51,002 bases of DNA from Candidatus Nanopelagicales bacterium (lineage in GTDB: Bacteria > Actinomycetota > Actinomycetes > S36-B12 > GCA-2699445), in contig JAUYJT010000084.1 in assembly GCA_030700225.1 (NCBI GenBank), positions 1-51,002 on the forward strand. Direction: 5' to 3'. The number at the start of each line of letters is the position of its first letter. The stretch's first letter is position 1. The notes beneath the pieces are model-generated. The model was not told the DNA's origin. It was given only the letters and a program-made list of their open reading frames with translations, and ran no database searches. The translations under genes and the position numbers were made by a program. This document shows positions 576 through 51,002 of the stretch, piece after piece.

Positions 576-1799
576 TCAGGGGACCGCTGAGGAGGGACTG
601 GCGCCGGACAGGCGCTTGCGCAGTGCCACGACGACTGGCATACCGAACGCCAACGCGATCACGGCCATCAACAAGAACGCCGAAGCGGGTGACTCCACCA
701 ACGTTCCGACCAGCGCCGAGACCGCGACCCCGCCGGCGTTACCGGCCAGCCACACCAGGGCTGTGGCTGTAGCGGCCGCCTTGCCCGCACGTTTCTCGAC
801 CAGATCCAGCACGATTGGCAGCATCGCGAGCAGGAGGAACCCGATGAGTGCCGAGACCGTGAATCCCGCCCAGACCGTGGGTGAAATGGCCAGCGCGAGG
901 CAGGCCAGCACGACCACGGTGATTGCCAGGAGCATCCACGTTGTCTGATTGCCGCGCTTCGCGGCCATGGGGGGCAGAACAACAGCGCCGACCACTCCCG
1001 CCGTCACCATGATGGCCAGCATCAGGTCTGCGGAACTCGCCGCGACTCCGGCCGGGCTGAGCAGCGGCTGAACCCACGTAGTCAGCGCCACGAAGACCCC
1101 GTTGCCGACGGCGATCAGCAGCACCAGCAGCCGGATGACCGGATCGGCCCAAGCTGTGCGCAGCGGACGCCCGGCCGCCGACTCGATGCTTCCGATGTCA
1201 CTAGAGTCGAGTTCCGCAGCGAAACGACCAGGGCGCGACAGCGCGACGACCATGACCGCGACCGCCACTACGGCGAAGGCGGCCTGTATCCCGAGCAGCA
1301 GCGGGATGTCGGTTCCCCAAACCGCTCCGCACACGAAAGCGAGCAGCATGCCGACGAAGAGCGCAGCCGAACCCACCGCTATACCAGTCGCGCGCTGCCG
1401 ACGGGGCAGGTAGCTGATGCTGAGTTTGGCAACCGCGTTCAGCACCAGCGGTTGTCCGAGCGAAACGGCCACTTGGCCCAACATGGCGAACGCGAAACTT
1501 CGAGTGTCCAGAACGCGGATCAACCCACCACCCGCCGTGAGTAAGCCGCCCGCGATTAGGGCGGGCCGAAGCCATCGATCCAGCAGCAGCCCGGATGGGA
1601 TCGCGACTACCACGTACACCAGCGGGAAGATGATCGACAAGAACCCCACGGCGTCTGTGCTTACCCCGTAGAAACTCGCCGACTGAGTTGTCACGGGCGC
1701 GAAGGACAGCCACAGCATCTGGGTCGACGCGGCAACCATCGCGTAGCCACCGATGGCGAACCAGTCGCCACGAGCAGTCAGCCCTGCCCTGGGCGTCAC
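576..1799 (-). CDS. MFS transporter (FLVCR-like)
   Basis: A 407-residue integral membrane protein with about 12 hydrophobic segments in two halves around a charged central loop near residues 195-215. This is the usual size and plan of a major facilitator carrier. The N-terminal part (a W...FAPVT pattern, a FYGVS segment, a PSGLLLDRW loop between the second and third helices and a later MLGQ...GQPL segment) resembles the FLVCR branch. The substrate cannot be read from sequence, so a heme or other porphyrin role would be guesswork. The start is GTG with a G-rich stretch just upstream. It lies downstream of meaB on the same strand with a 63-nt gap, so it may be a distal member of the mutase operon. 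Confidence 0.85.
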   Translation of the reverse strand: MTPRAGLTARGDWFAIGGYAMVAASTQMLWLSFAPVTTQSASFYGVSTDAVGFLSIIFPLVYVVVAIPSGLLLDRWLRPALIAGGLLTAGGGLIRVLDTRSFAFAMLGQVAVSLGQPLVLNAVAKLSISYLPRRQRATGIAVGSAALFVGMLLAFVCGAVWGTDIPLLLGIQAAFAVVAVAVMVVALSRPGRFAAELDSSDIGSIESAAGRPLRTAWADPVIRLLVLLIAVGNGVFVALTTWVQPLLSPAGVAASSADLMLAIMVTAGVVGAVVLPPMAAKRGNQTTWMLLAITVVVLACLALAISPTVWAGFTVSALIGFLLLAMLPIVLDLVEKRAGKAAATATALVWLAGNAGGVAVSALVGTLVESPASAFLLMAVIALAFGMPVVVALRKRLSGASPSSAVP

Positions 1800-1862
1800 A
1801 GCGCCCCCGTCGCGTTCATGGTCGCTCAGGATAGCCGCAGGAGGTGCGCCAAAGGCGGTTCT

Positions 1863-2882
1863 CTAGGGCCTGCCCCCATCTGGACGAAAAGCTCGCATCA
1901 GCAACTCGGCGCCGCGCCCCGGAGCAACCGCCCCAGACGCGACTTGAGCCTCCACGTCGCCGAGCAAGCCCCGGACAGCTGGATCGGCGTGGAAGTCGCT
2001 GTCCAGTCGGTCGCGGATCGTCGCCCACATCCACGACACGGCCTGCTCGCGGCGCTTGATATCCAGGAGGCCTTCGGCCTGCATGTAGCTTCGATGCTCC
2101 AGGACGGCCTGCCAGACTTCCGCGAGCCCGCGCTCCTTGAGGGCACTGCATGTCAGGACCGGGATCCGCCATCCACTCCCCGGGCCTCCCAGAATGCGTA
2201 GCGCACCGGAAAGTTCGCCCGCGGCGTGCCGGGCTTCGGCCTCATGAGCGCCGTCGGCCTTGTTGACCGCGATGACATCGGCCAACTCGATGATCCCGCG
2301 CTTGATCCCCTGGAGCTGATCACCCATGCGTGACATTGCCAGCAGCAGGAACGTGTCGACCATCCGCGACACAGCGACCTCGGACTGGCCCACTCCAACC
2401 GTCTCAACAAGAACCACATCGAAACCGGCCGCCTCCAGCACAACAATCGACTCTCTCGTCGCTCTGGCAACTCCCCCGAGGGTCCCAGCGCTGGGTGACG
2501 GCCGGATGAAGGCGCCCGGGTCAGCGGCTAACCGATCCATCCGCGTCTTGTCACCGAGCACGCTGCCGAATGTCCGAGCGCTGGACGGATCCACGGCCAG
2601 CACGCCCACCCGCTGGCCCTCCGCGGTCAACAACACGCCCATCGCGTCGATGAACGTCGACTTGCCAACTCCTGGCACTCCCGAAATGCCCACTCGGATC
2701 GCGCTACCGGACGAAGGCAGCAGGGCCGCGAGCAGCTCCTGACCGGCCAACTTGTCATCGCGCTGGGTCGATTCGAGAAGAGTGATCGAGCGTGCGATGC
2801 AATTGCGGTCGCCGCCACGCACGCCCGCGACCAACTCGTCGAGCGGCGGCCGCTCACGCGCACCCGAAGGACTGCCGGTCAC
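1863..2882 (-). CDS. meaB: Methylmalonyl-CoA mutase-associated GTPase MeaB
   Basis: This G3E-family P-loop GTPase guards and reloads adenosylcobalamin in methylmalonyl-CoA mutase. The Walker A sequence GVPGVGKST sits at residues 68-76. The later segments [20 protein letters not shown] and the NKAD guanine-specificity motif are all present. Length (339 aa) is normal for MeaB/ArgK. The GTG start overlaps the mutB stop by 4 nt (GTGA), which implies translational coupling and supports a working partnership with the upstream MutA/MutB subunits. The C-terminal arm used for dimerisation appears intact. Confidence 0.95.
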
Positions 2883-5056
2883 TCGGGGGCCCGGCTATCC
2901 AAGTCTGAGAGCAGTTCCTCGGCCGCCTTCGGAACGACGGTCCCAGGAGGGAAGATCGCGGCCGCACCCGCCTCCTTCAGCGCCTCGAAGTCGCCCGCCG
3001 GAATCACTCCCCCGACGACGATCAAGATGTCGGGCCTGCCCAGCTCCTTCAGCGCATCTCGCAGTTCGGGAACCAAGGTCAGGTGGCCAGCCGCCAATGA
3101 TGAGACGCCTACCACGTGGACGTCAGCTTCGATGGCCTGGCGGGCGACCTCGGCTGGCGTCGCGAACAACGGCCCGACATCGACATCGAAGCCTAGGTCG
3201 GCGAACGCGGCTGCGATGACCTTCTGCCCCCTGTCATGGCCGTCCTGCCCGATCTTCGCGACCAGGATCCGTGGCTGGCGCCCTTCCCTCTCAGCGAATT
3301 CGGCCACTTCATCACGCACACGCTCGATGTCAGCCGTGCGGCCAGCCTCTTCTCGGTACACGCCCGTGATAGTACGGATGCTGGCGCGGTGACGACCAAA
3401 CACACGCTCGAGCGCGTCGGACATTTCCCCCACAGTCGCACCGCCGCGTGCGGCCACGACCGACAATGCCAGCAGATTCTGGTCGAGCCCAGACCCTCTA
3501 GTGCCGTCCTTGACGGCCTGCGCCCCGGCCGTGAGCGCGTCGAGCGACACCGCCAGCCCCGCCTGGTCCCGATCCGATCGCAACCGCTCCAGCTTAGCCA
3601 GCTGCTCCGCCCGGACCGCGGTGTTGTCGACCTTCAGAACCTCCACTGGACGGTCATGCTCAGAGCGGTAAAGATTCACGCCGATGACCGGCTGCTTCCC
3701 GGAGTCGATCCGGGCTTGAGTCCTGGCCGCGGCTTCCTCGATACGCAACTTCGGCGTACCCTCGGCGATCGCCTTGGCCATACCGCCGACCGCCTCAACT
3801 TCCTCGATGTGGTGTAGTGCCCGCACCGCCAGGTCGTACGTGAGCCGCTCCACGCAGTACGACCCCGCCCATGGGTCGATCACCCGCGTCGTGCCCGACT
3901 CCTCCTGGAGTAGCAGCTGGGTGTTCCTGGCGATCCGCGCCGAGAAGTCCGTAGGCAGAGCCAGCGCTTCGTCCAGCGCATTGGTATGCAAAGACTGTGT
4001 CAGCCCCTGCGTGGCGGCCATAGCTTCGATCGTCGTGCGCCCGATGTTGTTGAACACGTCCTGAGCCGTGAGCGACCATCCCGAGGTCTGGCAGTGCGTA
4101 CGCAGCGACAACGACCGGGGGTCCTTCGGCTCGAAACCCCGCATGAGCCTTGCCCACAGCATCCGCGCGGCACGCAGCTTGGCAACCTCCATGAAGAAGT
4201 TCATCCCGACACCCCAGAAGAACGAGAGCCGAGGGGCGAACTTGTCGATCGGAAGTCCGGCAGCCAGGCCGGCCCTGACGTACTCAACCCCGTCGGCCAG
4301 CGTGTACGCCAGCTCGAGATCAGCGGTAGCACCAGCTTCCTGAATGTGATAGCCCGAGATCGATATGGAGTTGAAGCGCGGCATCTTCGCCGAGGCGTAC
4401 GCGAAGATGTCGGAGATGATCCTCATGCTGGGGTCAGGCGGATAGATGTAGGTGTTCCGGACCATGAACTCCTTGAGGATGTCGTTCTGGATCGTGCCGG
4501 CCAGCTGCTCCGGCTTCACCCCCTGCTCCTCGGCCGCGACGATGTACAGCGCCATGATGGGAAGGACCGCGCCGTTCATCGTCATCGACACGCTCATCTT
4601 GTCCAGTGGGATCGCTTCGAACAGCTGCCTCATGTCCAGGATCGAGTCGATGGCGACCCCTGCCATGCCAACGTCACCGGCAACCCGTGGGTGATCGCTG
4701 TCGTATCCCCGGTGCGTCGGCAGATCGAACGCAACCGACAGCCCCTTCTGCCCCGCGGCCAGGTTGCGGCGGTAGAAGGCGTTGGATTCCTCAGCCGTGG
4801 AGAAGCCCGAGTACTGTCGAATCGTCCACGGGCGCGTGACGTACATGGTCGGATACGGACCGCGCAAGAACGGGGGCAGCCCCGGATAGGTGTCTAGGAA
4901 GTCCAAGCCTTCAACGTCCTGCGGGCCGTATTCGGACTTGACATCGATCCTCTCGGGCGTCTGCCACACTGCGCGCGAGTCGCCAGAGGCATCGGTTCGG
5001 CTTCCGGAATCTGTCCACAGCGGGACATTCGAAAACGATGGGATCGTGGCCATCAC
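2879..5056 (-). CDS. mutB: Methylmalonyl-CoA mutase large (alpha) subunit
   Basis: This is the catalytic, B12-binding subunit that interconverts succinyl-CoA and (R)-methylmalonyl-CoA. At 725 aa it has the TIM-barrel domain with the [11 protein letters not shown] substrate-binding segment, the [12 protein letters not shown] segment and the RNTQ stretch. The Rossmann-like cobalamin domain follows from about residue 595. The DxHxxG motif is DGHDRG at 605-610, with His607 as the expected lower cobalt ligand. The start is GTG at 5056 (GTGA overlap with mutA) or ATG at 5053 (TGATG overlap); either couples it to mutA. With mutA and meaB it forms a propionyl-CoA/methylmalonyl-CoA operon. No epimerase gene is in the window. 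Confidence 0.97.
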
Positions 5057-6867
5057 CGCACCCCCAGCGCTGACATCGCACGTCGCAGAGTCGCGACGCC
5101 GTCACAGTGCGCGAACACGTAGGCGTCGATACCCGCAGCGCCGTCCACTTCCACCCGGTCTCCGGGTTGACCGGTCAACCAAACCAGCCTTGCCCCAGCC
5201 TCCCGGCAAGCCAGCGCCGCCGCCGTGACCTGTTCCTGATAGACGGTGTCGGACCCGCACAAGCACGCGACGACAGGAGAACGCCGGGGGAATCCCAGCC
5301 GTCTGCCGGGTGCGAAGGGGACTACTACGCACTCGATCCCGCCCGCGACGAATAGGTTCGCGGCGAACGACTGCCGGGCCTTGTGAGAGGCTCGCGACCC
5401 GAGCGTGACTAGGTGGACCTTCGGCCGAGAGCCTCGCGCGGCAGCCGCGTCGCTGCGGTCCCTCAACTCTTCCCACTCCTGCGAATACCGAGTCTGCGGC
5501 AGCCCACCCGATGGGCGCCTCAAAGCTGGGCCTGGTGACTTCGGCACAAGATCATCGCCAGGAAACTCGCTCACGCCGGTGATAGGTGACCGACGCTGCG
5601 CGACCCGATCGGCGCGCAACCCTCTAGTCCTGGAGATCCGCGAAGCGACAAGACCAGACTCGATGGCGGCGCGCAGCCCGCCGACTCCTTCGACGTCCTG
5701 CAAGATCGCCCAGGCGGCTTCAGCCATCTGCCTCGTGCGGCTCTCCACGTACCAGGAGCCAGCGGCGGGATCCGAGACGAACCCGACTCGGGATTCGCAG
5801 AGCAGAAGATGTTGAGTGTTCCTGGCAACGCGCCGTGCGAACTCGTCAGGCCTGCCCACCGCTGTGGTGTGGGGCAGCACCGTCACCGCGTCGGCGTTTC
5901 CGACGCCCGCGGCGAAGGCGGCTACGCAATTCCGAACCACGTTCACCCATGGATCCCGCTTCGTCAGCATCGCCCACGACGTCACAGCGTGGAGACGCAG
6001 TCTTGAGCTGCCCCCCGCCCCAAGGACCTGCAGGACCCGATTCCAAATCAAGCGCGCGGCGCGCAGCTTGGCGATCGTGGCGAACTGGTCGTCGGTGGCG
6101 GCTACTCGAAATTCCAGGAGCTTGGCCGCATCGTCAACCTTGAGCCCGGAGGCCAGCATGAGTCGCATAGCCTCCAGACCCGCCGCACACGTTAGGCCCA
6201 ACTCGTCCCCAAACGACGCACCCGCGTCGTGGTAGACGGTGCCGTCGATCGAGAACGCCAGGATCCCGCGAGCTTCCGCCTCTCGCGCGAGATCCGCCAC
6301 CCTATCGAGGTCGCCCGTCCGTCCGGTCCCCGCCAGCAGACCATAGGGATCGAGCCCCAGTGACGTGCCGTCAGCGAAGTCACCGCCTGCCGGAACCGCG
6401 CCTAGCAACTGGCGGGCCGCCTGCTCCCCACGGTCGAACCCCTCCAGAGTCACGGCCGTCCGGCTCAAGTCAATCTCACGCAGGATCTTGCGGAGTCTTC
6501 GCGGAGTCGGCCCGGCGCCTGACAAGGTCAGCCAGATCTGCTGCACACCGTTGGACAAGTCGTCAGCGACCGCTTCCGCCACTTCCGAGCTGCCCCAGTG
6601 ACGCTGCCTGATAGTCCAGCGCGATCGGCCGGACGACAGCCGCTGCGGGGGTGGAGCGGGTCGGAGGGTCAAGGGCGCGAGGTCAGCGGCGGTGTAGAGA
6701 GCTTGGACGACGTAGCCGTCATCAGTGGGCGTCATCATTAGGCGCTCGACTTCGTCGGCGTCGACCGGGCCACCGTCCCCGCTCAGCGTGGCCGCAGCCA
6801 ACTCCCGCCAGTCAGCTCTGCCGAACCTCGGGAACCCCGCCAGCAGCGGGATTCGGTCCGATGTCAT
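5053..6867 (-). CDS. mutA: Methylmalonyl-CoA mutase small (beta) subunit
   Basis: This is the non-catalytic partner of MutB, with the same barrel plus Rossmann plan but no cobalamin ligand. Where MutB has DGHDRG, this protein reads [11 protein letters not shown], so it cannot bind B12 in the usual way, as expected for MutA. The barrel shows SVDGT-like and RNTQHLL segments shared with MutB. I place the start at the ATG at 6867 rather than the GTG two codons upstream, because a TAGAGT -10 box ends exactly six bases before this ATG. It is the first gene of mutA-mutB-meaB and is divergent from sdhC. Length is 604 aa. Confidence 0.93.
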
Positions 6868-6873
6868 ACCCAC

Positions 6874-47745: not shown

Positions 47746-48951
47746 TCACTGCCGCAGGCGGTACTCCTCGAGCAGTCGGCGACCAATGACCATGCGCTGG
47801 ATGTCGGCCGTTCCCTCACCAATGAGCAGCATGGGCGCGTCCCTATAGAGCCGCTCAATCTCGTACTCCTTGGAGTAGCCGTAGCCGCCGTGGATCCGGA
47901 AGGAGTCCTGGACGACCTCGTTGCAGTACTCCGCGGCCACCATCTTGGCCATGCCGGCCTCGACGTCGTTGCGCTCGCCCGAGTCCTTGGTGCGCGCGGC
48001 GCGGACCATCATCGTGTGGGCGGTCTCGACCTTGGTCGCCATCTCCGCGAGCCGGAACAAGATCGCCTGGTGCTCGGCGATCTGCTTGCCGAAGGTCTCG
48101 CGGGTCTGGGCGTAGGCGACGGCGAGCTCGAAGGCCCGGTTGGCGATCCCGCAGGCACGCGCGGCGACGTTGACGCGGCCCACCTCGACGCCGTCCATCA
48201 TCTGGTAGAAACCCCGGCCCGGTTCCCCACCAAGCAGCCGATCCGCGGGCAGGCGGAAGTTCTCCATGACCAACTCGGTCGTGTCCACGCCCTTGTAGCC
48301 CATTTTGTCGATCTTTCCGGGAATGGTCAGACCGGGCAGGACCTCCCCGAAGCCGGCCGGCTTCTCGATCAGGAAGGTCGACATCTTGCGGTAGATCGAC
48401 GTATCGGCCGAGGCTTCGGCGTCAGTCCGCATGAGCACAGCGCACAAAGTTGACGAGCCACCGTTCGTCAACCACATCTTCTGCCCGTTGAGCACGTAGT
48501 CGTCACCGTCGCGGACGGCGCGGGACGTGATCGCGGAAACGTCGGAGCCGCAATTGGGCTCGGACATGGAAAAAGAACCCCGCACTTCACCTGTGGCCAT
48601 CCGCGGCAGAAAGTGGGCCTTCTGCTCGTCGGTTCCGTGCTGTTTGAGCAGGTAGGCGACGATGAAATGCGTATTGATGATCCCCGAAACGCTCATCCAC
48701 CCGCGAGCGATCTCCTCGACGCACAGTGCGTAGGTCAGCAGACTCTCACCGAGCCCGCCGTACTCCTCCGGGATCATCAGGCCGAAGATCCCCATCTCTT
48801 TGAGACCCTCGACGATCTGCGTCGGGTACTCGTCGGCGTGCTCCAGTTCCTGCGCGACGGGGATGATTTCGTTGTCGACGAACTCCCGCACCGCACCCAG
48901 GATTTCCTGCTGAATGTCGGTCAGTCCGTCTGTTTGCGTGAGTCGTGCCAT
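47746..48951 (-). CDS. Acyl-CoA dehydrogenase
   Basis: A 401-aa FAD-dependent acyl-CoA dehydrogenase. Signatures: FSMSEPNCGSDVS (flavin/substrate), MWLTNGG, VRVNVAARACGIA-type helix GVEVGRVNVAARA, RETFGKQIAEHQ, and IHGGYGYSKEYEIERLYRDA. The probable catalytic Glu lies in the IGEGTADIQRM segment. The acyl specificity is not readable. The start is ATG at 48951, matching family lengths; the frame is open 43 codons further, into sequence with no ACAD character. It follows two unrecognised genes and a CitE-type lyase gene on the same strand. Confidence 0.92.
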   Translation of the reverse strand: MARLTQTDGLTDIQQEILGAVREFVDNEIIPVAQELEHADEYPTQIVEGLKEMGIFGLMIPEEYGGLGESLLTYALCVEEIARGWMSVSGIINTHFIVAYLLKQHGTDEQKAHFLPRMATGEVRGSFSMSEPNCGSDVSAITSRAVRDGDDYVLNGQKMWLTNGGSSTLCAVLMRTDAEASADTSIYRKMSTFLIEKPAGFGEVLPGLTIPGKIDKMGYKGVDTTELVMENFRLPADRLLGGEPGRGFYQMMDGVEVGRVNVAARACGIANRAFELAVAYAQTRETFGKQIAEHQAILFRLAEMATKVETAHTMMVRAARTKDSGERNDVEAGMAKMVAAEYCNEVVQDSFRIHGGYGYSKEYEIERLYRDAPMLLIGEGTADIQRMVIGRRLLEEYRLRQ

Positions 48952-49022: not shown

Positions 49023-49553
49023 CTACTTCTTGAGTGGACGAAGTCGCTCGCGCAGATTGTCCGTCTGAGCAGTGACCCACTCCACGAGTTGCGAGGCATT
49101 GACTGTGGATCCGCGAACGTAGTCGTCCAAGTCCAGCAGATAGTACGTCCGCGCGTTCACCGTGTTGAGCTGATGGTTGACCCGCACCTCGCCGGCGACC
49201 GGCATCTTGAATAGGTTCGCGAGATCAGTACGCCACATCGTGGCCAGGTCATCGGGGTCGGTGATTTTGTGGCGCATTTCGGCGGTCAGCCCGATGACGG
49301 TCTTGCTGCCAAGGGACTGCGAGATCGCGCCGGAGCCAGTCTTGCGGTCGACCGTCACGAAGACCGACGAGAGAACCGGGTCACCCGGCATCTTGAACCC
49401 GATCGTCTGTCGGCCGGAGTTCGCCGTGATGCGGAAGCACCGCCATCCCCGATGAGACAAGCCGCGAATCAACTCCCCGCAAACAATCTCGTCCTTCGAT
49501 TCGCGCAATTCCGACTTGTGCGCGTAATTGGTCATCGCATTGAACAAGCCCAT
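49023..49553 (-). CDS. Uncharacterised protein, partner of the GYF_2-domain gene
   Basis: A 176-aa soluble protein that I do not recognise. It is predicted as alternating strands and helices: GWRCFRITA, RQTIGFKMPG and SSVFVTVD look like consecutive strands; the end YYLLDLDDYV is a strand followed by a long helix ending in RLRPLKK. The loose layout recalls T3SS-chaperone/YbjN-like folds, at low confidence. A GAGGGG ribosome site five bases upstream supports the start. It lies 9 nt downstream of the GYF_2 gene, which it resembles in its C-terminal half. Confidence 0.65.
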   Translation of the reverse strand: MGLFNAMTNYAHKSELRESKDEIVCGELIRGLSHRGWRCFRITANSGRQTIGFKMPGDPVLSSVFVTVDRKTGSGAISQSLGSKTVIGLTAEMRHKITDPDDLATMWRTDLANLFKMPVAGEVRVNHQLNTVNARTYYLLDLDDYVRGSTVNASQLVEWVTAQTDNLRERLRPLKK

Positions 49554-49562
49554 GGTCGCCCC

Positions 49563-50423
49563 TCAGCTTCCGAACCGTGATTGGACGAATGTCTGCATCG
49601 TGTAGACCACGGAGGCCAGATGCCGTCTCAGCAAGTCGTTGTCGACGGCAAAATGCTCATCGACATACCGCCCCAAGTCGAGCAACAGATCTACCTGCGC
49701 GTACACGTACCCCGAGGACAGGTCGGCATCGAACGTCACCGTCCCGGGCTCAGGGGAAACGATGAACGAACTCTGGACCTCCTGCCGAAGCGCCTGGCCG
49801 ACCCGAGTGAAGTTGGGTACCCGTTGGCCGTATCCGATCACCACCTCCGCCCGATGACCAATCATCTTGGCGACGGCCGGATCGGGGGTCAGGTGCTTCA
49901 GGGTCAGCGTTACCCGCGAATGGGTCTGCGGCTCCTCGAAGCGCAACTCATGGCAGTTCGGGATGACGGGAGCTGCGCCGGCTCCAGTGGTGGTGGTTGT
50001 GGTCGCCGCCGGTGTCCCGGCCGTGCCCAGGTCAATCAGGGCGAACCCGCAGTCAACCAACGCCGTCACCACTCCACCGAGCATGACTTCATCGATCGAG
50101 GTGGCGAATTCGGTCTCCTTGTACATCACCCAGCTACGGTCGATCAAGTCGATGAACTGGTCGTCGAGCTCCTGATCCGTCAACCCGCTCATCAAGGCCG
50201 CCGACGCCGCGGTCGGGGCAACGGCAGCCGACGCACTTGCGGTCGACGTGAGTTGGGCAACCGAACTCAAGGGGGTCCAGCCACTAGCCCCTTCCCACCA
50301 GATGACAGTGGTGGCTGGAATCTGCCCCGCGTTGGCGCGCTGGACGACTGTTTCCAGTGGCTCGGGTCCGACTTGATTGCCCTGTTGGTCAACCCAACGG
50401 ACCTGCTCGGTCAAATCCGGCAT
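49563..50423 (-). CDS. GYF_2 (DUF4339)-domain protein of unknown function
   Basis: A 286-aa protein. Residues about 8-58 are a GYF_2/DUF4339 domain: WVDQQGNQVGP, then the IPATTVIWWEGASGW block. These domains are thought to bind peptides or act as adaptors. An Ala-rich linker (60-78) and a helix pair (DQELDDQFIDLIDRSWVMY) follow. A Thr-rich linker then leads to a C-terminal domain with strands (HRAEVVIGYGQ, GYVYAQVDLLLDLGRYV) and a final helix. AGGAG seven bases before the ATG supports the start. It is 66 nt downstream of citE. No transmembrane segment or signal peptide. Confidence 0.7.
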   Translation of the reverse strand: MPDLTEQVRWVDQQGNQVGPEPLETVVQRANAGQIPATTVIWWEGASGWTPLSSVAQLTSTASASAAVAPTAASAALMSGLTDQELDDQFIDLIDRSWVMYKETEFATSIDEVMLGGVVTALVDCGFALIDLGTAGTPAATTTTTTGAGAAPVIPNCHELRFEEPQTHSRVTLTLKHLTPDPAVAKMIGHRAEVVIGYGQRVPNFTRVGQALRQEVQSSFIVSPEPGTVTFDADLSSGYVYAQVDLLLDLGRYVDEHFAVDNDLLRRHLASVVYTMQTFVQSRFGS

Positions 50424-50489
50424 TCCATGTCTCCTGCCCTTGGCGCTCCGTACATGTGCTGGCTATTCGGCATCTACTTGCTGTCTTGT

Positions 50490-51002
50490 CTACTCGGCGG
50501 GTGGCTCGAACTTCGAAGTCCGTTGCATCCCCGCCGCCCGACCCTTGGCCGCAATGACCAGCGCCATCTTGCGCGAGGCCTCGTCGATCATCTCGTCACC
50601 CAGCATGACCGCACCTCGGGCACCGCCCTCGGCAGACGTGAAGTATGCGTAAGCATCGAGGATCAACTCGGAATGGTCGTAGTCGTCCTGGCGCGGGGAG
50701 TAGACCTCGTTCGCCGCCTCGACCTGACCGGGGTGAAGAACCCACTTGCCGTCAAATCCCAGGGCCGCCGAACGCTCGGCCACCCGGCGGTAGCCGTCGA
50801 CATCGCGAATCTGCAGGTACGGGCCGTCAATGGCTTGTTTGCCGTACGCCCGGGCCGCCATCAGGATCCGCATGAGGATGTAGTGGTAGGCGTCACCCTC
50901 CGTGTAACCGGGGGGCTGCTCCCCCACGACCAGCGACTTCATATTGATGCTGGCCATGAAATCCGCCGGGCCGAAGATGATCGTCTCCACCCGATCGGAG
51001 GC
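50490..51002 (-). CDS. HpcH/HpaI-CitE-type CoA-ester lyase (5' truncated by window edge)
   Basis: The C-terminal half of a CitE-like lyase; the frame is open to base 51002, so the start is outside. Visible family segments are FGPADFMASI (metal-binding Asp), a KQAIDGPYLQIRD block, and FDGKWVLHPGQVEAANEVYSP. Members cleave malyl-, methylmalyl- or citramalyl-CoA to a keto acid and an acyl-CoA. The neighbouring acyl-CoA dehydrogenase and the mutase operon of this window fit acyl-CoA metabolism, but which CoA ester is used cannot be read. Confidence 0.85.
   Translation of the reverse strand, partial: ASDRVETIIFGPADFMASINMKSLVVGEQPPGYTEGDAYHYILMRILMAARAYGKQAIDGPYLQIRDVDGYRRVAERSAALGFDGKWVLHPGQVEAANEVYSPRQDDYDHSELILDAYAYFTSAEGGARGAVMLGDEMIDEASRKMALVIAAKGRAAGMQRTSKFEPPAE

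Follow-up and report, generated by a model that had tools for sequence, protein, structure and literature searches.

The window, by which we mean the whole stretch of 51,002 nucleotides analysed here, is an entire contig (G000:C84) from the 2.6 Mb, 85-contig assembly of a Candidatus Nanopelagicales bacterium. Near one end it carries two adjacent genes, which we call A and B, lying between a citE-like lyase gene that is truncated by the contig end and an acyl-CoA dehydrogenase gene (Table 1). The stop codon of A occupies positions 49563-49565 and B starts at 49553, which leaves a gap of 9 nt. The pair is separated from its flanking genes by 66 and 71 nt, all on the same strand. A preliminary description of this DNA, made from the letters alone, had reported both open reading frames, their 9-nt spacing and a ribosome site for each, and the sequence bears this out. 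The window genome has one copy of A and one of B, and both are under purifying selection (dN 0.04-0.28 versus dS 0.35-1.9 in 20 pairwise comparisons, the larger dS values being near saturation). A scan for promoters and terminators returned no promoters and two terminator-like sites, both on the plus strand and near chance. At the opposite end of the window (576-6873) there are genes that read, from their sequences, as methylmalonyl-CoA mutase subunits and a MeaB-like GTPase.

Table 1. Features of the A-B locus and its flanks, in window coordinates.
Feature	Positions	Strand	Basis
Gene A: GYF_2, Ala-rich linker and putative TY-chaperone-like domain, 286 aa	49563-50423	minus	ORF, Pfam, model
GYF_2 domain of A, residues 13-58	50250-50387	minus	Pfam PF14237; model matches GYF structures (1wh2, Z 7.6)
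C-terminal domain of A, residues ~111-286, predicted type III secretion chaperone/YbjN fold	49566-50093	minus	VIA-align
Gene B: paralogue of the A C-terminal domain, without GYF_2, 176 aa	49023-49553	minus	hhalign
Ribosome-binding site of A, AGGAG	50431-50435	minus	Read from sequence; 7 nt before ATG
Ribosome-binding site of B, GAGGGG	49559-49564	minus	Read from sequence; 5 nt before ATG; overlaps A stop codon
citE/HpcH-HpaI lyase gene, 3' part only (flank, outside the module)	50490-51002	minus	PF03328, E 8e-11
Acyl-CoA dehydrogenase gene (flank, outside the module)	47746-48951	minus	Pfam; start set by comparison with relatives

One domain of the pair belongs to a known family. A matches the Pfam GYF_2 family (PF14237) with an E-value of 4e-9 and 36.6 bits against a gathering cut-off of 25.8; the A genes of genomes G523, G661 and G713 score 20.6, 23.4 and 19.4 bits, all under this cut-off. 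The nearest solved sequence to the GYF part is the GYF domain of GltJ (7z3c, E 0.0012), and the NCBIfam GltJ model gives a weak match over the same part (22.8 bits against a full-length cut-off of 450). Beyond GYF_2, A reaches no curated Pfam or NCBIfam family, B has no match in either collection and a PHROG match only at E 0.29, and neither collection reveals a catalytic family or effector domain in A or B. The preliminary description, which had recognised GYF_2 and nothing else in the two proteins, was right on both counts. Of the 9 GYF-bearing A members, 7 have Glu directly after the GP of the GYF core, G523 has Ala and G713 has Val; in more distant GYF_2 relatives this residue is Tyr, Trp, Leu or Phe. 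The prevalence of Glu here makes canonical proline-rich binding by the A domain doubtful, and its ligand may be something other than a standard proline-rich peptide.

Profile-profile comparison points to a common origin for B and the C-terminal half of A. With seven rows in each profile, hhalign aligned residues 103-267 of A collinearly with residues 13-158 of B (probability 50, E 1.6e-4). With eleven rows each, the alignment was again collinear, over 155 columns, and reached a probability of 91.9, an E-value of 7e-7 and a score of 48.2; as controls, the best of 100 column-shuffled profiles scored 29.1 (the mean being 14.7) and a reversed profile scored 16.6. An HMM built solely from B proteins also picks up A from G699 (E 2e-4) and from G713 (E 4e-4). 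The likeness of the two C-terminal halves had first been proposed on the basis of three pairs of motifs (G-F/W..I, F..P....TV and LLDL..YV), each of which is aligned to its counterpart in the A-B profile alignment. The further proposal that A and B are paralogues is supported by a score that beats every shuffle, and we regard them as sister proteins from one gene duplication.

The pair is sparsely distributed. In the bacterium's own order an A-type gene was found in 5 of 60 genomes (G000, G005, G029, G045 and G049), and a search with B found it in 4 of 166 (G000, G005, G045 and G049). In a second order, that of G520 and G521, reached through the LaPlata bins L012 and L013 that correspond to these two genomes, strong A matches occur in 6 of 298 genomes and B occurs in the same six among 296. 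These counts exclude, as chance matches, three weak A matches in the own order and the B matches in G069 and G555; after inspection of the reading frames, the matches L007, L008, L009, L019, L028-L031, L076, L081, L067 and L068 were likewise dropped. A sample of 394 genomes of the same class returned the window alone, besides weak chance matches. A sample of 376 genomes of the phylum returned the window, two chance matches and G1157, which by its coordinates is G523 and which, being listed under the same phylum, belongs to another class. Searches of plasmids and viral contigs with A, and of phages with B, gave no relatives.

Where A occurs, B almost always accompanies it. In 10 of the 11 genomes with an A-type gene, spanning two classes, B lies directly downstream on the same strand, with gaps of 9, 10, 11, 2, 2, 1, 2, 7, 75 and 12 nt; in one of these (G049) B runs off its contig and the remaining part opens another. 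In the eleventh genome, G029, the contig ends inside A. Whether the two genes stay together across genomes was a check proposed at the outset, and the answer is that they do.

The surroundings of the pair change from genome to genome. They include molybdopterin (MoCF/MoaE) and lysine-decarboxylase-like genes in G045, a convergent amino-acid permease gene in G049, zwf and a DUF2252 gene in G661, hydrolase and TetR genes in G005, an EAL protein gene in G699, and in G713 a DUF2157 gene together with an ABC transporter gene that follows the pair on the same strand. A shared context was seen only in G520 and G521, where the neighbour is a pyridine-nucleotide oxidoreductase gene (in G521 by sequence likeness); the neighbours in G523 are not resolved by Pfam. 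Among the neighbours that could be identified, neither citE nor an acyl-CoA dehydrogenase gene adjoins any other A-B pair, no secretion genes were recognised and no client is encoded. Genes around the pair and its relatives were called with a simple script based on GC content by codon position, and details may err; for example, the dehydrogenase of G008 falls in two overlapping frames. In a separate observation, convergent genes for EAL-domain (c-di-GMP phosphodiesterase-like) proteins adjoin the A gene L055 (Pfam EAL) and the relatives L056 and L057 (sequence likeness).

A convenient comparison is offered by G008, a genome of the same order in which 21 nt separate the end of the citE orthologue (84.5% identity across 168 aa) from the dehydrogenase orthologue, with no module between them. 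Taken with the differing flanks, this indicates that the acyl-CoA setting in the window is very probably accidental, and the simplest account is that the pair was inserted into an existing citE-dehydrogenase arrangement, a loss in G008 being formally conceivable as the alternative. A separate insertion had been raised in the preliminary description as one of two possibilities, and it is the better reading. In G029 the same gap is filled by a glycosyl hydrolase 39-like gene (L096:3362-4693) and the A gene lies on another contig, such that this junction may have taken inserts at least twice. In five other genomes (G001, G002, G003, G006 and G045) no citE precedes the dehydrogenase within the stretch fetched.

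Sequence identities fit an insertion of this kind. The window's A and B proteins share 66-76% identity with those of G520 and G521, which belong to another order, and come about equally close, at 69% and 77%, to those of G045, a genome of the same order. The best matches of the window dehydrogenase are 38% in G520 and 51% in G661, whereas of ten genomes searched closer to home six match it at 80-85%. This is the pattern expected of horizontal transfer, although the class of G520 is shown only through G523 of the same order. No repeats frame the module; those seen are short and chance-like.

A and B were modelled with AlphaFold2, from inputs of 4 rows for A and 6 for B. The A model has a mean pLDDT of 52.5 (75-82 in the GYF part and about 50-60 in the C-terminal part). 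The B model reaches a mean of 40.2, and its structural comparison gave no class I chaperone or YbjN rows, which is uninformative at this confidence. The A model was re-aligned with VIA-align to 999 PDB chains. Its best matches are DR_1245 (4h5b; Z 9.2, rmsd 3.4, 128 residues), AvrPphF ORF1 (Z 9.1, rmsd 3.6, 127 residues), VecA (Z 8.7, rmsd 4.1, 123 residues), a SycN-YscB chain (1xkp; Z 8.2, rmsd 4.1, 115 residues) and YbjN (6vu7; Z 8.2, rmsd 4.1, 121 residues), followed at Z 7.8-7.9 by VepA-VecA, AmyR (5fr7, Z 7.8), 3cxj and a second AmyR row. The top nine rows are therefore all of one fold class, with Z values of 7.8-9.2 over 115-134 residues, and 3cxj is tabulated beside DR_1245 and chaperone-fold structures in an excerpt of PMC3575483. 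Lower rows include PA14_16140/BacA, Spa15, SycH, SpcU and SpcS. Values of 7-8 are common for models without a clear match, and a Z of 8-9 stands only moderately over this background.

The order of the structural elements also agrees. The A model has helices at residues 110-124, 205-218 and 262-284, and strands at 128-132, 157-163, 170-176, 191-201, 227-234 and 239-249, which fits the alpha-beta(3)-alpha-beta(2)-alpha topology given for the fold in the excerpt of PMC3575483, with one strand added. Sequence profiles and Foldseek do not reach this fold: Foldseek gave no match for the A model at E below 0.001 (the one clearly chaperone-named row in the top 50 is Spa15, at E 0.63), searching the PDB with the A and B profiles brought up neither chaperone nor YbjN chains, and neither 23 A-type and more distant domains nor 7 B rows matched the YbjN or CesT families of Pfam. 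In assigning the fold we give more weight to the consistency of the listed matches and to the element order than to the Z values. On this modelling we think it probable, with a good deal of assurance, that the C-terminal domain of A adopts the fold of type III secretion chaperones and YbjN, and that B does so through its homology to A.

What might such a pair do? The near-invariant residues of B fall mostly on the predicted helix 2 and the strands that follow (D99-N113 and P118-A134). In AmyR, helix 2 and the loop behind it make up the dimer interface and are better conserved than any other region, according to an excerpt of PMC5398634. Proteins with the chaperone fold are described as dimeric and as binding segments of their partner proteins; DR1245 binds DdrB and may serve as its chaperone (PMC3575483, in part). 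Two coupled, always paired paralogues of this fold suggest a heterodimer, as in SycN-YscB. We propose that A and B would be co-produced from a two-gene unit, in which the ribosome site of B overlaps the stop codon of A, and that A, carrying its N-terminal GYF_2 domain on a flexible linker ahead of a small chaperone-fold domain, would pair with B. The chaperone-fold surfaces of the complex might then hold a segment of a client, the GYF_2 domain would dock the complex on a proline-containing partner, and the unit as a block would move between lineages. The heterodimer, the client binding and the docking are all inferred, and the fold within this account comes from a model of low confidence. We give an about even chance to the account as a whole, that A-B is a heterodimeric, peptide-binding, chaperone-like complex with a GYF_2 docking adaptor and without a functional link to its flanks.

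A wider family bears on both the history and the function of the pair. The A profile recovers ten proteins in the order of G520 (L058-L066 and L069) that have a GYF_2-like N-terminus, a long linker that is rich in Pro and Ala or acidic, and a related C-terminal domain. Aligned with hhalign against this sister set together with L056 and L057, A gave a probability of 99.4, an E-value of 1.6e-21 and a score of 136.1 (shuffle maximum 20.1); L056 and L057 were placed with the distant set for these profiles, even though in the tree they are the nearest to A and group with it (100/99). GYF_2 scores above the Pfam cut-off in five of the six wider-set proteins scanned (L057, L058, L063, L065 and L069); the sixth, L056, has no match, but a contig end has cut off the start of its gene. 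In the tree the two A proteins that have no GYF_2 domain, from G005 and G699, group with each other, next to all the other A proteins (85/77). Trees were midpoint-rooted and built without the partial G029 protein and, for B, without the two pieces from G049.

Distant relatives already join GYF_2 to this domain, so by parsimony, on a midpoint-rooted tree, the combination is probably older than the A-B pair. The preliminary description had the larger gene gaining GYF_2; this is not favoured, given those relatives and the A genes of G005 and G699, and the sequences make it more likely that the domain was lost by B and by these two A genes. The sister family is also without the stretch that forms helix 2 in the A model, where the alignment has a gap; A and B keep it.

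At nine of their ten loci the sister genes immediately precede ion-transport genes encoded on the same strand; L060 has none. A ligand-gated-type K+ channel gene and then a cation P-type ATPase gene follow L059, L061, L063 and L064, a cation P-type ATPase gene alone follows L058 and L065, and a TrkA-domain K+ channel gene follows L062, L066 and L069. The transport genes are confirmed by Pfam at L058, L062, L063, L065 and L069 and assigned by sequence likeness at the other loci. It is possible that the transporter-linked GYF_2 genes are an accessory family for channels or pumps. Long Pro-Ala repeats in the linkers of L059, L061, L063 and L064 could be GYF ligands, as could a proline-rich N-terminus in the ATPase adjoining L065. 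Three of the sister genes (L062, L066 and L069) lie divergently beside acyl-CoA dehydrogenase genes (Pfam for L062), an arrangement that may be coincidental where genomes carry many of these genes.

These loci raise the question of whether A and B are themselves accessory proteins for membrane cation transport, assisting the assembly or regulation of a channel or pump that is encoded elsewhere. The sister proteins are true relatives of A, as the hhalign score above shows, and the ABC transporter gene behind the pair in G713 would fit as well. However, no ion channel or pump is found among the other identified neighbours of A-B, the absence of the helix-2 stretch from the sister family means that function may have changed, and the nine transporter-linked loci fall in few clades and are not independent. 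We regard this explanation as unlikely.

The sparse occurrence of the pair suggests another explanation, that A-B is a selfish or defensive two-gene cassette, either toxin-antitoxin-like or a conflict module with a chaperone partner. Coupled genes that are highly identical across classes, sit at varied insertion sites and, for B, occur in 4 of 166 own-order and 6 of 296 other-order genomes would suit such a cassette, and conflict systems centred on ADP-ribose are reported to contain TY-chaperone families (PMC9503650, in part). However, A, B, the B of G523 and one transporter-linked relative had no PADLOC match at E up to 1, the module has neither a recognised effector domain nor framing repeats, and nothing was found in phages with B or in viral contigs with A. 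We consider this improbable.

Conservation raises a third alternative. The near-invariant polar residues of B are unusually many (E15, R17, E18, S19, D21, E22, D69, R70, D99, D101, D102, T109, D110, N113, H127 and N130), and the E...S.DE part of this set is also present in A. This might be expected if B were an enzyme or ligand-binding protein built on the chaperone fold and A its targeting partner. Since no catalytic family was recognised and excerpts of PMC5398634 and PMC3575483 portray the known proteins of this fold as binding other proteins, we think the chances of this are small.

Finally, the idea put forward in the preliminary description, that A and B regulate or assemble with the flanking citE and acyl-CoA dehydrogenase enzymes, draws on the shared strand and close spacing in the window and on the dehydrogenase genes beside 3 of the 10 sister genes, and it is highly improbable and rejected on the neighbourhood evidence, since the flanks differ almost everywhere, no other A-B pair has either gene among its identified neighbours, G008 keeps the two genes together without the module, and G029 holds another gene in the gap and its A gene elsewhere.

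How does the heterodimeric chaperone-like complex that we favour compare with known systems? The best structural match of the A C-terminal domain is to DR1245 of Deinococcus radiodurans and the YbjN family (AmyR, YbjN), which need no secretion system and are thought to act through protein partners (excerpts of PMC3575483 and PMC5398634). Unlike A-B, these proteins have neither a GYF_2 domain nor a coupled paralogue in the excerpted accounts, and they share no sequence match with the pair. Class I type III secretion chaperones, in particular SycN-YscB, resemble the A model in fold, and their two-subunit heterodimer is the arrangement that we propose for A-B; A-B differs in having no recognised secretion genes alongside and an added GYF_2 domain. 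The TY-chaperone superfamily (TY-Chap1-3) is of the same fold class and places chaperone domains in small bacterial gene modules. These sit, unlike A-B, in ADP-ribose-centred systems, and GYF goes unmentioned in the excerpt of PMC9503650. GltJ of Myxococcus xanthus shares the GYF_2 domain with A, but is a gliding-motility protein of another architecture. In planctomycete conflict systems, as an excerpt of PMC7159879 describes them, paired GYF domains have trypsin or membrane regions as their fusion partners rather than a chaperone-like domain. A search of the open-access literature found no description of a GYF_2 plus chaperone-like-domain architecture or of the sister family, and A-B apparently consists of known domains in an undescribed fusion and pair.

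In summary, for two orphan genes we can now offer a fold and a quaternary arrangement that are both likely, as well as an account of how the genes evolved, and the striking place of A-B between two acyl-CoA genes is revealed as very probably accidental. The analysis also exposes a sister family, in which a GYF_2 adaptor and a chaperone-like domain are encoded directly upstream of K+ channel and cation-pump genes, a link that is easily tested. More tentatively, these genes might together make up an undescribed actinobacterial family of GYF_2 adaptors joined to a type III-chaperone-like domain, with one branch serving adjacent K+ channels or cation pumps and the other being the mobile heterodimeric chaperone A-B. 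If this is true, bacteria would use GYF domains to guide the chaperoning or the gating of ion channels, a regulatory principle that would be new for them, with A-B as its freely moving form.
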